The position numbers and the translations under genes are program-made. A stretch of DNA of 17,786 nucleotides from Gemmatimonadota bacterium. Its GTDB lineage: Bacteria > Gemmatimonadota > Gemmatimonadetes > Gemmatimonadales > Gemmatimonadaceae. Position 1 is the first letter of the stretch; each line of letters begins with the position of its first letter. The notes beneath the pieces were generated by a model that ran no database searches, had not been told where the DNA came from, and saw only the letters and a program-made list of their open reading frames with translations. Where the stretch lies: contig JARIET010000026.1 of assembly GCA_031127185.1 (NCBI GenBank), forward strand, positions 1 through 17,786, given 5' to 3'. Positions 12,259 through 14,981 of this stretch are shown piece by piece.

Positions 12259-12268
12259 CCTCGTCCCT

Positions 12269-12353
<85 letters not shown>

Positions 12354-12359
12354 CTGGGC

Positions 12360-12475
12360 ACGACAACTGCGAGTGTACGGTGAACGGTGTACGGTTTGAC
12401 GGTCTCAATGACCCGACTGCTGTGCACCGTCTACCGTTAACCGTCTACCGTAGACCGTCAGCTCGCTGTTGTCGT
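12360..12475. repeat. 116-bp imperfect palindrome with ACGGT/ACCGT heptad arrays
   Basis: The outer arms are unique sequence: 14 bases at 12360-12373 pair with 12462-12475 with one mismatch (T12368 opposite T12467). Inside the left arm, ACGGT occurs at 12377, 12384, 12391 and 12399 (spacing 7, 7, 8). Inside the right arm its complement ACCGT occurs at 12426, 12433, 12440, 12447 and 12454 (spacing exactly 7). The pentamer is invariant while the two linker bases vary. A small GGTC/GACC hairpin (12401-12413) lies near the centre. The element fills the gap between tRNA-Leu and the convergent unknown gene. It could serve as a terminator for both, or be a dispersed repeat; there are no coding signs or T-tracts. 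Confidence 0.85.
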
Positions 12476-12482
12476 TGACCCA

Positions 12483-13043
12483 CTACTTGCCGCCCACGAC
12501 CTCGCTCGGCGGCAGGTGCTCGGGAAGCTGGGCCGTTCCGTAGACCTCGCGCAGCACGGTGTTGCACTCCAGGGCATAGCCGGCGAACACTTCGATCGCC
12601 CGAGCCAGCGGCGAACCGGCGCTGCGTGTGCCGTCGGAAGCGAACGCCAGCAGCACGCGACCGAGTCGGTCGCTGGTACCGGCTGCGCCGCGGGCAAAGA
12701 ACGCATCGCGATAGGCCTGCAGGCGGTCGGCGAACTGACGCTCAGCAAGAGGCCGCATGTCGGGCGCGACGCGTTCATCACGTGCAAATATTTCACGCAA
12801 GGCCGCGGCAACGTCTGAACTGGTCTGGTCGTCGAGCGCATCGCGTTCGGCCACAAACAGTGCGACCGCCATGCGAGCGTAGCGCAGTTCCCATTGCGCG
12901 TGATCCTCGTCGCCGGCGGCGGCCGATGTCGCGAGCCAGGTCACGTCGGCCACCGCTGGCTCTGCAAATGCGGTTGCGGCGTACTTGCGGGCCCTTTCCA
13001 ACCGCGCCCTCGCCGCGCGCCACTCCGGAGTGAACGGAATCAC
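12483..13043 (-). CDS. Hypothetical protein, probably all-helical
   Basis: I do not recognise this protein. From GTG at 13043 it has 186 residues starting MIPFTPEWRAARARLERARK. It is rich in Ala, Arg, Glu and Leu, with no signal peptide, membrane segment or clear catalytic motif, and looks mostly alpha-helical. Features near the middle are QWELRYARMAVALFVAERDALDD and a C-terminal region ending EVVGGK (each quoted only in part in the family sense). The frame stays open upstream to 13220, but that part overlaps the Rrf2 gene in another frame and reads as basic low-complexity sequence, so I place the start after the Rrf2 stop, 23 bases downstream. No strong Shine-Dalgarno is seen. Co-transcription with the regulator is likely; the function is unknown. 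Confidence 0.7.
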   Translation of the reverse strand: MIPFTPEWRAARARLERARKYAATAFAEPAVADVTWLATSAAAGDEDHAQWELRYARMAVALFVAERDALDDQTSSDVAAALREIFARDERVAPDMRPLAERQFADRLQAYRDAFFARGAAGTSDRLGRVLLAFASDGTRSAGSPLARAIEVFAGYALECNTVLREVYGTAQLPEHLPPSEVVGGK

Positions 13044-13066
13044 CGGATGATGGGCGCCAATGCCGA

Positions 13067-13522
13067 TCAGGCCTGGAGGACCGGCAGGCCGATGCGCTGA
13101 CGCACCGCCGGCTCCTTTTCGAGCAGGTCGGAGAGGCACACGCTGTCGAGCACCTCGTCGATCCGCTTCTGCAGCATCATCCACACGGGACGAATGCTGC
13201 ACTCGTGTGCGGTCGAACAACGGACCTCATCCACCGGGTGACTCTCACAATGGAGGTCGAATGTCACGAGTTCCGCGGCGGTGATGATCTCGCGCACCGT
13301 GATCTCGGACGCCGGGCGGGTGAGCGCGTAACCGCCGCGCGCACCGCGCGTGCTGGACACAATCCCGGCGCGGCGCAGGCGCAGGAGGATCTGTTCCACG
13401 TAGTCGGCCGGGAGCTGTTCGCGGGCCGCCAGGTCGCGGCCGTTGACCGCTGCCTCATCGGTGCGCTTCGCCAGGTGCAGCGCACAGATGACTCCGTACT
13501 CGGCCCAGGTCGTGATGCGCAT
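13067..13522 (-). CDS. Rrf2-family transcriptional regulator, probably Fe-S
   Basis: Rrf2 proteins are dimeric winged-helix regulators that often sense Fe-S status, nitric oxide or redox stress. The 151-residue protein starts MRITTWAEYGVICALHLAK, close to the family N-terminus. Its helix-turn-helix and wing region includes LPADYVEQILLRLRRAGIV and RGARGGYALTRP. Cysteines C92, C102 and C108 form the likely cluster site, with C108 in ECSIRPVW as in many members. The spacing C-x9-C-x5-C is wider between the first two than in IscR (C-x5-C-x5-C). The ATG at 13522 follows the aspA stop by 37 bases and has no strong Shine-Dalgarno. It may control itself, the unknown gene after it, or genes elsewhere. 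Confidence 0.9.
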   Translation of the reverse strand: MRITTWAEYGVICALHLAKRTDEAAVNGRDLAAREQLPADYVEQILLRLRRAGIVSSTRGARGGYALTRPASEITVREIITAAELVTFDLHCESHPVDEVRCSTAHECSIRPVWMMLQKRIDEVLDSVCLSDLLEKEPAVRQRIGLPVLQA

Positions 13523-13554
13523 ACCAGAAACTAGCGAACTTCAACTGTAAGTGC

Positions 13555-13580
13555 ACGATTTACGGCTTACGGCCCACGGT
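13555..13580. repeat. Short CCGT heptad array across the aspA stop codon
   Basis: On the plus strand ACG begins at 13555, 13562, 13569 and 13576, exactly seven bases apart, with three of the four units reading ACGG. On the minus strand the core is CCGT, as in the right arm of the 12360-12475 element. The TAA stop of aspA lies within the array, which also encodes the last residues (TVGRKP). It may be a smaller member of the same repeat type, or chance. Confidence 0.45.
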
Positions 13581-14981
13581 GTTGCCGGGAACGCCGATTT
13601 CCGTCATGGCGCGCAGGTCCAACACACGCTTCAGCTCGTCGTCCGGCAGGACCTTGAGCCGCGTCGCCAGCTCGCGAATCGACTCACCGGTCTTCAGCGA
13701 CTCCTTAGACAGTTCGGCTGCTTTGGCGTAGCCGATGTAGGGGGCCAGCGCCGTCGCGAGCGCCGCCGACCGTTCCACCCAGTAGGCCGCCTGGGCCGCG
13801 TCTGCCATGATGCCACGCACACATCGTTCATCGAACACGCGGATTGCGTTTGCGAGAATCCGTTCCGACTGCAGCAGGTTGTGGGCGATGACCGGCATCA
13901 TCACGTTCAACTCGAGCTGGCCGTGCTCGGCCGCGAATGCCACCGTGGTGTCATTGCCGATCACCTGATAGCAGACCTGATTCACCATCTCGGGAATGGA
14001 CGGATTGATCTTCCCCGGCATGATGCTCGAGCCGGGCTGCACTGCCGGAAGTGCGATTTCATTCAGGCCGGTACGCGGCCCGCTGGCAAGCAGCCGGATG
14101 TCACTCGAGATCTTGGACAGGTCGAGGGCCACACCGCGCAGCGCCGCGCTGAAGGCAGTGAAATCACCCATCGACTGCATCAACTGCACGGGGTCCAGAC
14201 CCAACCGAAGTTCAATGCCGGCATTCGCGACGAGCTCATTCACCATGCGCTCGGGATACACCGGTTCGGCGTTCACGCCAGTGCCGACGGCCGTGCCGCC
14301 AATGCCAATGTCCCGGAGGTCATCGGTGGCCGCTTCAACCCTCCGGCGGGCGCGCTCCAGCGTACCGGCCCATGCGGCGAACTCCTGGCCAAGCCTGATC
14401 GGCATCGCGTCCTGCAAGTGCGAGCGACCCGCCTTGACGATGCCGTCGAACTCCGAGGCCTTCGCCCGCAGGCTTGTGACGAGGGTGTCGAGCGAGGAGA
14501 CGAGTGCCCGCGCCTCCGTGACCACGGCGATGCGCATTGCGGTCGGGATCACGTCATTCGTCGACTGCGCCATGTTGACGTGATCATTTGGATGCACGGG
14601 AGCGTAACCGCCCCGCGGCGTGCCGAGCAGTTCATTGGCCCGGTTCGCGAGCACTTCGTTCACGTTCATGTTGAGGGATGTTCCGGCGCCCGCCTGGTAG
14701 ACATCCACAACAAACGCCTCGGCGTGGGAACCCGCGAGCACTTCGTCCGACGCGCGCACGATTGCATCAGCGGAAGCCGCTTCCAGGCGGCCCGTGCCTT
14801 GATGGACCCGGGCCGCGGCGCGCTTGATCCTCACGATCGCGGCGACGAACGCCGGACTCGGCCGCAACCCGGAGATGGGAAAGTTCAGTACTGCGCGCTG
14901 CGTCTGCCCACCGAACAACGCTCCCGCTGGCACCTCGACAGGGCCAAGGGGATCCCGCTCCGTGCGAGTGCCCGGCGTCAG
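13560..14981 (-). CDS. aspA: Aspartate ammonia-lyase
   Basis: The enzyme reversibly converts L-aspartate to fumarate and ammonia and belongs to the fumarase/aspartase superfamily. The family loop GSSIMPGKIN is at about residues 317-326 of the 473-residue form. HPNDHVNMAQSTND and QAGAGTSLNMN favour aspartase over fumarase C, as does the region EMVNQVCYQVIGND followed by AEHGQLELNVM. The start is the odd point. GTG at 14933 is the first conventional codon but would drop TRTERDPLGPVEVPAGAL.G, whose first half is conserved in the family. No ATG, GTG or TTG lies upstream in frame within reach. CTG at 14981 overlaps the lipoprotein stop (CTGA) and gives a length matching the family, so I use it. 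Fumarase activity cannot be wholly excluded. Confidence 0.88.
   Translation of the reverse strand: MTPGTRTERDPLGPVEVPAGALFGGQTQRAVLNFPISGLRPSPAFVAAIVRIKRAAARVHQGTGRLEAASADAIVRASDEVLAGSHAEAFVVDVYQAGAGTSLNMNVNEVLANRANELLGTPRGGYAPVHPNDHVNMAQSTNDVIPTAMRIAVVTEARALVSSLDTLVTSLRAKASEFDGIVKAGRSHLQDAMPIRLGQEFAAWAGTLERARRRVEAATDDLRDIGIGGTAVGTGVNAEPVYPERMVNELVANAGIELRLGLDPVQLMQSMGDFTAFSAALRGVALDLSKISSDIRLLASGPRTGLNEIALPAVQPGSSIMPGKINPSIPEMVNQVCYQVIGNDTTVAFAAEHGQLELNVMMPVIAHNLLQSERILANAIRVFDERCVRGIMADAAQAAYWVERSAALATALAPYIGYAKAAELSKESLKTGESIRELATRLKVLPDDELKRVLDLRAMTEIGVPGNTVGRKP

Follow-up and report, generated by a model that had tools for sequence, protein, structure and literature searches.

The palindromic element at positions 12360-12475 of the window (the whole stretch of 17,786 nucleotides that was analysed) is a member of a genus-wide family of dispersed elements, whose copies are about 100-120 bp long. 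These elements stand at gene ends in inherited places, carry stems that differ by genome, and have arms that agree mainly at the cores of their repeat units. Their conserved outer arms touch or overlap stop codons, and each 7-nt unit consists of an agreeing 5-nt core and a mostly non-agreeing linker. The reading preferred here, with somewhat less than even confidence, is a bidirectional gene-end element composed of inverted arrays of heptad sites and matched to a putative reader encoded by the genome.

The window copy and its neighbours

The window copy is a palindrome whose 14-bp outer arms differ by one mismatch; between them lie four ACGGT and five ACCGT units, almost all at a 7-bp spacing. 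The left outer arm, ACGACAACTGCGAG (12360-12373, plus strand), was read directly and aligned; it recurs in gaps of genomes G000 and G256, and its family consensus is about AACNACAACNGCGAGT. The left array (12377-12403, plus strand) holds ACGGT at 12377, 12384, 12391, and 12399, the last unit being preceded by a 3-nt linker. A 22-nt loop (12404-12425) leads to the right array (12426-12458, minus strand), where ACCGT stands at 12426, 12433, 12440, 12447, and 12454 with an exact spacing of 7 and 2-nt linkers. The right outer arm (12462-12475, minus strand) is the reverse complement of the left apart from the mismatch, both in sequence and in the RNA fold; it is T-rich towards its outer end, but the T-rich tract is interrupted and the arm itself is paired. 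The left array has the linkers GA, GT, and TTG; those of the right array, given on the ACGGT strand, are CT, AG, TA, and AG, and none of them match across the palindrome.

Chance origin of this palindrome is excluded. The window contains six ACGGTNNACGGT pairs, all inside the element, where 0.04 are expected, and none of 200 shuffles attained six. The predicted RNA fold of 12355-12485 has a free energy of -65.6 kcal/mol, compared with -41.2 ± 3.9 for shuffles (z -6.2), and thus predicts the stable hairpin that an intrinsic terminator calls for. Judging from the sequence and the fold, the outer stem may continue through pairing of GGG at 12356-12358 with CCC at 12480-12482. The first-pass annotation had described the ACGGT/ACCGT heptads, the 14-bp arms, and the four-versus-five unit count, and direct reading, the pair count, and the fold all bear this description out.

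The element occupies the gap between tRNA-Leu and a convergent protein-coding ORF. The tRNA gene (12268-12354, plus strand; anticodon CAG; ARAGORN and Rfam RF00005) lies upstream with its 3′ end facing the element. The ORF (12483-13220, minus strand), which has no Pfam match and is given with its longest start, the true start being uncertain, has its stop codon 7 nt from the right outer arm. A default-setting repeat search of the window reported nothing at the element, and an Rfam search of the window reached the gathering score for the tRNA only. A terminator scan made no call at the element; it admits only loops of 3-8 and is blind to this stem. The covariance model R1, built from eight elements, scores the window copy at 86.3 bits on the plus strand (12360-12473) and 76.3 bits on the minus strand (12362-12475), scores that are not independent because the window copy is one of the eight. 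R1 also gives a weak match, which may be chance, at 13538-13621 beside a gene for an Rrf2-type regulator (12.6 bits, E 0.068). The window is contig C98 of a 2.2 Mb genome that is 61% complete, and its RpoA, RpsD, and RpsK are 86%, 81%, and 91% identical to those on Gemmatimonadetes record VHBQ01000080.1 (L141).

A dispersed family at inherited gene ends

At E ≤ 0.01, R1 finds matches in 14 of the 18 genomes of this Gemmatimonadota genus. With at most 150 candidates scored per genome on both strands, so that one palindrome is usually counted twice, there are 40 matches in the window's own genome, 65 in G256, 71 in G257 (the genus maximum), and a single match in each of G250 and G252; G057, G173, G251, and G254 have no match. 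Across the family, R1 at E ≤ 1e-4 matches 28 of 118 genomes and 12 of 35 genera. The pattern (ACGGTNN)2ACGGT occurs 14 times in the window's own genome and its reversed form not at all. A dispersed intergenic repeat had been among the first proposals for this element, and these counts, together with the outer arms found in gaps, establish it; further copies in the genome and its relatives were looked for and found.

Gaps and coding sequence were separated by gene calls from a purpose-made codon-based script rather than a standard annotator. Exact matches to the outer-arm 12-mer number four in G000 and six in G256 within gaps (39 kb), compared with two and none in coding sequence (488 kb); gaps of G231 and G063 contain none. 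With up to one mismatch, the gap matches run into heptads, as judged by eye, in 6 of 7 cases in G000 and 10 of 12 in G256, and the reversed control has none in gaps of either genome, one in G231, and two in G063. At the same stringency the far longer coding sequence holds 17 matches in G000 and five in G256; gaps and coding sequence hold none versus seven in G231 and two versus five in G063. As a genome-wide marker the raw 12-mer count was rejected: summed over the 18 genomes, 81 exact matches face 76 for the reversed control, so raw counts are uninformative and the enrichment is visible in gaps only.

Gene neighbourhoods were assigned for 74 elements, the best-scoring part of the R1 matches, which came from 58 of 60 loci (L382 and L383 omitted) and 150 aligned matches of 156 after two duplicated G256 places had been dropped from a set of 76. 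The 66 that could be placed lie in 37 tandem, 25 convergent, and 4 divergent gaps, with 8 unplaced, against a background of 169 tandem, 28 convergent, and 49 divergent gaps in the G000 and G256 stretches. The window copy was scored as tandem in this count, in which tRNA genes were uncalled, and is convergent once the tRNA is included. The median distance to a stop codon is -1 nt (50 of 87 measured distances lie within 10 nt), so the outer arm often overlaps the stop codon; the median distance to a start codon is 30. Where a stop codon lies inside an outer arm, the C-terminal residues of the protein would come from that arm: L130:1497-1514 reads NDKSE and then stop, and the start of the L418 element is similar (frames by eye). 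Many elements occupy narrow gaps between tandem genes, tuf-rpsJ among them, and because strong termination there would come at a cost, this counts against the preferred reading. A two-way terminator, as first suggested, is plausible in view of the position at stop codons, the convergent excess, and the plain hairpins that occupy the same slots of some relatives, although the right outer arm is T-rich only with interruptions.

The tRNA-Leu slot was located in 17 of the 18 genomes (G083 was not parsed) and read in 16, including the window's own. It holds a heptad-built palindrome in G000, G256, G249, and G169, and conservation at the locus was thus looked for and found; the G249 copy has TCATTGG units followed by TTTTT, and only the right arm of the G169 copy is seen, the left side being an assembly gap. 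In G255 the outer arm is almost identical and heptads are absent, G027 carries a short perfect hairpin, and G250, G251, G252, G057, G254, G063, and G092 have a plain strong hairpin; the slots of G236, G173, and G253 were left unclassed. Plain hairpins thus occur both in genomes with no R1 match (G251, G057, and G254) and in carriers of the family (G063 and G092). The tuf-rpsJ gap, read in 17 genomes and not found in G251, carries a heptad element in eight: G000, G236, G092, G083, G249, G256, G063, and G169. G252 and G257 have a short form there, G255 has two direct units, and G057 and G254, neither of which has family matches, have a plain hairpin. No hairpin was found in this gap in G250, G027, G173, or G253, whose short gaps could be deletions. 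The lack of a tuf-rpsJ hairpin in G173, which has no R1 matches, and the plain tRNA-Leu hairpins of G063 and G092 count against the preferred reading.

The stem sequence is a dialect, largely set per genome. The consensus of the 5′ arm is CGGCTGACGGTTGACGGCTGACGGT in G256, GGGTGGTCGGTGGTCGGTGGTCGGT in G236, CGGTTTGCGGTTGGCGGTTTGCGGA in G000, and CGGTCATTGGTCGTTGG... in G169. Flank comparison gave many cross-genome orthologous pairs among 76 elements. Stem identity, computed after removal of the two duplicates, is 0.736 between loci of the same genome (403 pairs), 0.602 between genomes at the same locus (59 pairs; 0.583 for the 52 pairs left without close genome pairs), and 0.573 where neither locus nor genome is common (2239 pairs). 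With close genomes removed, same-locus pairs are not distinguished from other pairs (P = 0.18), and outer-arm identity differs little among the three classes (0.669, 0.688, and 0.635). In G063 and G083, whose flanks are 93-97% identical, stem identity is 0.92-0.98 at three common loci (the listing behind this comparison still holds a duplicated G256 element); the copies are therefore inherited. The tuf-rpsJ elements of G249 and G169 have flanks that are 97% identical and a stem identity of 0.50, which may reflect fast change or an alignment phase error.

Heptad arrays in other genomes and known relatives

Within the phylum, the four-unit pattern is present in 16 of 249 genomes, 15 of them in the same family. 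The reversed control, four TGGCA units 7 apart, matches 53 times in G202, 10 times in G115, and less often elsewhere, which indicates that other heptad families exist. A scan for three ACGGT units facing three ACCGT units, run on a collection that represents 84,980 species by a single genome apiece, returned 114 stretches. The 80 titled stretches among them come from Gemmatimonadota, Saprospiraceae and other Bacteroidota, Desulfobacterales and other former Deltaproteobacteria, Chloroflexota, Aminicenantes, Thermoanaerobaculia, Planctomycetota, and Methylomirabilota. The same 3+3 pattern had no match in the viral contigs searched, and a virus element was rejected on that ground. All 114 loci were used for placement and yielded 117 elements, of which 96 were placed (72 tandem, 16 convergent, and 8 divergent; background gaps of 75 nt or longer number 265, 44, and 83 in these classes), 9 lay inside a called ORF, and 12 lay near a contig edge. 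Their median distance is 5.5 nt to a stop codon (104) and 31.5 nt to a start codon (88).

Period 7 is prominent beyond ACGGT itself. With the bait masked, the flanks of the 80 loci hold 68 period-7 arrays, compared with 1-32 for each remaining period between 4 and 14, and heptads other than ACGGT make up many of the 68. Gaps and coding sequence hold 9 versus 2 period-7 arrays in G000 (19.8 kb and 307 kb), 25 versus 5 in G231, 7 versus 0 in G256, and 2 versus 2 in G063; the 20 G000 contigs, the G256 stretches, and part of the G063 stretches were picked from contigs with earlier matches, and G231 was picked as array-rich, contigs C1-C20 being used consecutively. In three of these four genomes, gap arrays have period 7 more often than any other; in the exception, G063, it (2) stands behind period 11 (4). 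Lone arrays in a single orientation are frequent in G000 and G231. They have no consistent orientation by eye, and a tie between array polarity and gene strand was rejected. Where neighbouring arrays are opposite, ACGGT comes first and ACCGT second in 12 of 12 cases, seven from the window and genome stretches (G000 and G256 contigs partly picked for matches) and five from masked named flanks. A G-rich 5′ arm prevails in heptad hairpins (19 versus 2) and was rejected as a heptad-specific mark, since plain hairpins lean likewise (52 versus 24). The Bacteroidota flanks of L133, L139, L148, and L161 carry period-7 inverted hairpins with different heptads, such as AATTGAG and ACGATTT, in genomes that also carry ACGGT arrays. 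In Desulfobacterales bacterium HSG2 (L187 and L173), several kinds of heptad array lie very densely within a few kb.

The inverted heptads of Xanthomonas are the closest precedent, and the inverted heptad build itself is already known; Rehm is reportedly the first author of the 2015 paper that describes them. In the available part of that paper (PMC4692102), inverted convergent pairs of GGGAATC or (GGGANTN)n heptads stand at gene ends, in most cases flanked by the same genes in both of two species, and no role is assigned to them. This corrects the first-pass statement that no named element has such a palindromic build. The two types share tandem 7-nt units in which roughly five positions are constant and two vary, an intergenic place near stop codons that is rare between divergent genes, and paired arrays in convergent orientation. 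The Xanthomonas heptads, as that text describes them, are G-rich, quadruplex-forming, and of one type, whereas the ACGGT units carry GG at most and the stems differ by genome; a shared outer arm and genome-specific dialects are found here and are not reported there.

Other known systems resemble the family in part. TAACTGA repeats of Beggiatoaceae, Cyanobacteria, and Bacteroidetes (MacGregor 2015, PMC4679880) are likewise intergenic heptads scattered across distant phyla, but the text seen describes direct repeats (with one inverted set) of one exact heptamer, mostly just upstream of start codons. REP/BIME sequences and GTAG/CGTC-tagged palindromes (Di Nocera et al. 2013, PMC3733652) are also extragenic and lie downstream of genes in tandem and convergent gaps; these palindromes measure 20-40 bp, the abstract gives no 7-nt period, and GTAG types are tied there to RAYTs. 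A Y1_Tnp (RAYT type) search was positive in 5 of 14 controls and in none of the 18 genus genomes, several of which are incomplete, and RAYT mobilisation within the genus was rejected; of eight other family genomes tested, one was positive and seven were without the domain. The DNA uptake sequences of Neisseriaceae (PMC3630211, 2013), to go by the accessible text, have species dialects of a short motif and inverted pairs associated with terminators, but they are single 10-12-mers that occur some 1900 to almost 6000 times in a genome, compared with tens of elements, each made of arrays, in this family. An uptake-sequence reading was rejected because copy number is far below about a thousand (40 in the window's own genome and at most 71 in the genus, with at most 150 candidates scored in each). 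The parS sites of plasmid pSM19035 (Volante et al. 2022, PMC9499535) are, in the portion seen, contiguous 7-bp WATCACW sites in direct or inverted order, each bound by one ribbon-helix-helix omega dimer, with four or more needed for full activity. Both systems have unspaced 7-bp sites in direct and inverted order; omega acts at plasmid promoters and a centromere according to that source, whereas the present elements are dispersed over chromosomal gene ends. A literature search, with subscription papers mostly outside its scope, found no title or abstract naming this element. New, as far as the literature was searched, are the Gemmatimonadota family with common outer arms, the dialects at inherited sites, and the spread of ACGGT across phyla.

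Arm pairing, rival readings, and meaning

In an alignment of 146 distinct rows, with nearly every palindrome present on both strands and with the bias of model-based alignments towards the model's own structure and phase, 89.5% of model cells pair across dialects versus 74.9% when shuffled, both-side changes number 504 versus 162, and slid structures bring pairing down to 22-49%. Per element, core positions pair at 80-100%, and the first core position is A-T, T-A, or G-C in 37, 18, and 13 of 75 elements. Three of six linker pairs are modestly above shuffles (59-66% versus 43-49%), and three are near or below chance. Within genomes, core compensation is absent from G256 (19 elements; 323 paired cells versus 322.1 expected) and G236 (11 elements; 199 versus 198.5). 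Paired cells exceed expectation in the mixed-flavour genomes G000 (282 versus 271.7), G083 (94 versus 85.7), G169 (92 versus 71.6), and G249 (75 versus 61.7); the difference in G063 (51 versus 47.9) is not significant, and the pooled count is 1171 versus 1113.4. Linkers within genomes pair at chance (205 cells versus 209.5, pooled). In the cross-phylum set (118 elements, window included), linkers are out of register (94 of 297, 31.6% versus 30.2%) and the unit counts of the two arms are uncorrelated (r = -0.04), which is consistent with the slipped pairing between unequal arms proposed at first pass.

G196, from another genus of the family, carries standardised copies of about 100 bp, of which 40 were fetched (L458-L497). 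They have GCGGT cores with mostly GA, TG, or TT linkers and a common conserved loop seen by eye, and several copies sometimes stand in a row. Their whole-model pairing is above chance (872 versus 843.6), an excess that stems from the outer helix and the outermost heptad, where the alignment frame probably varies between rows; the three inner cores are about equal to expectation. Linkers in the 27 of 40 elements that could be parsed have no in-register match (20 of 73 versus 28-32%).

Under the preferred reading, the element would act on gene ends from either side, through transcription termination or protection of mRNA 3′ ends. Each arm would be a run of sites whose 7-nt units a putative genome-encoded factor reads on DNA or on the RNA hairpin, and an array of protein-binding sites, as proposed earlier, is plausible. 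The arms would pair since one site was laid down twice in opposite directions, and dialects would arise as the preference of the factor drifts and the copies follow. The search for a reader was limited to Y1_Tnp and found none. The G000 subfamilies and the conserved loop of G196, the latter suggestive of recent copying, are points against a reader, as are the lone single-orientation arrays. Arm agreement in mixed-flavour genomes fits pairing or whole-element copying as well as it fits a reader.

A plain bidirectional RNA hairpin, serving as terminator or 3′ stabiliser, in which only pairing counts and the heptads are stem growth by 7-nt slippage within each arm, is possible but doubtful. It explains the slots, including those of relatives that hold plain hairpins, and the cross-dialect pairing with its both-side changes; the variable first core position, the three linker pairs above shuffles, and compensation in mixed-flavour genomes also favour it. 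It is opposed by the missing core compensation in G256, G236, and the three inner cores of G196, by linkers at chance within genomes and out of register in the cross-phylum and parsed G196 elements, and by the lack of T-run excess after cross-phylum arrays (TTTT 12 and AAAA 23 of 227 flanks). Unit slippage also predicts runs of like linkers along arms, and there are none (0.357 versus 0.386 shuffled, in 71 mixed arms of at least 5 units). The claim that this is an organised element rather than slippage alone holds, given these linkers and the recurrence of outer arms on other copies; local slippage by itself is rejected by the dispersed copies and the random linker order. A reader is favoured over a plain hairpin because a hairpin explains neither the genome-wide dialects at inherited positions nor the absence of core compensation in single-dialect genomes.

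Somewhat less probable is a selfish or passive dispersed repeat, comparable to BIMEs or MITEs, that a putative enzyme or conversion copies and whose new copies overwrite old ones at gene ends to yield dialects. Dispersed copies with conserved ends suggest this, and copying does explain G196, whose copies resemble recent amplification, and the mixed genomes, where the arms of one element share a flavour. G000 copies also show excess variance, that is, subfamilies (1 of 300 shuffles). Copies in G256 and G236, however, are approximately independent draws from one motif (58 and 143 of 300 column shuffles attain their variance of pairwise identity), in a test with about 25 columns and moderate power, and a reader is favoured because no genealogy is detectable there. 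The Y1_Tnp results, the inherited positions, and the stop-codon and orientation bias also weigh against copying. A neutral heptanucleotide microsatellite, confined to gaps because coding and promoter sequence is intolerant, is improbable. Its appeal lies in the frequency of period 7 in three of four genomes, in the reported preference of bacteria for heptads (PMC4692102, as far as that text was available), and in the occurrence of other heptads; the period counts of G063, the conserved outer arms, the palindromic build, the orthologous positions, and the per-genome dialects all speak against it. It is hard to hold for the genus family and may still apply to lone arrays.

A broader proposal, possible but less likely than not, is a hitherto undescribed gene-end signalling system, in which dozens of positionally conserved inverted 7-nt arrays per genome, with dialects rewritten in concert, would co-evolve with a putative sequence-specific 3′-end factor that acts in both directions. 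Additional examples would then be the similar ACGGT palindromes of Saprospiraceae, Desulfobacterales, Chloroflexota, and other groups. Over-representation of heptads in bacteria has been reported without an agreed function, and here heptads are the stems of inherited gene-end elements, whose place, period, and arm complementarity persist through genome-wide change of the stem sequence. Should there be a reader, the family would represent a novel means of marking gene ends, and its dialects would be a direct handle for finding that reader, through co-variation with a protein and cross-dialect swaps. If the elements are copied instead, they would represent an unexplained and apparently RAYT-free concerted evolution of bacterial palindromes.
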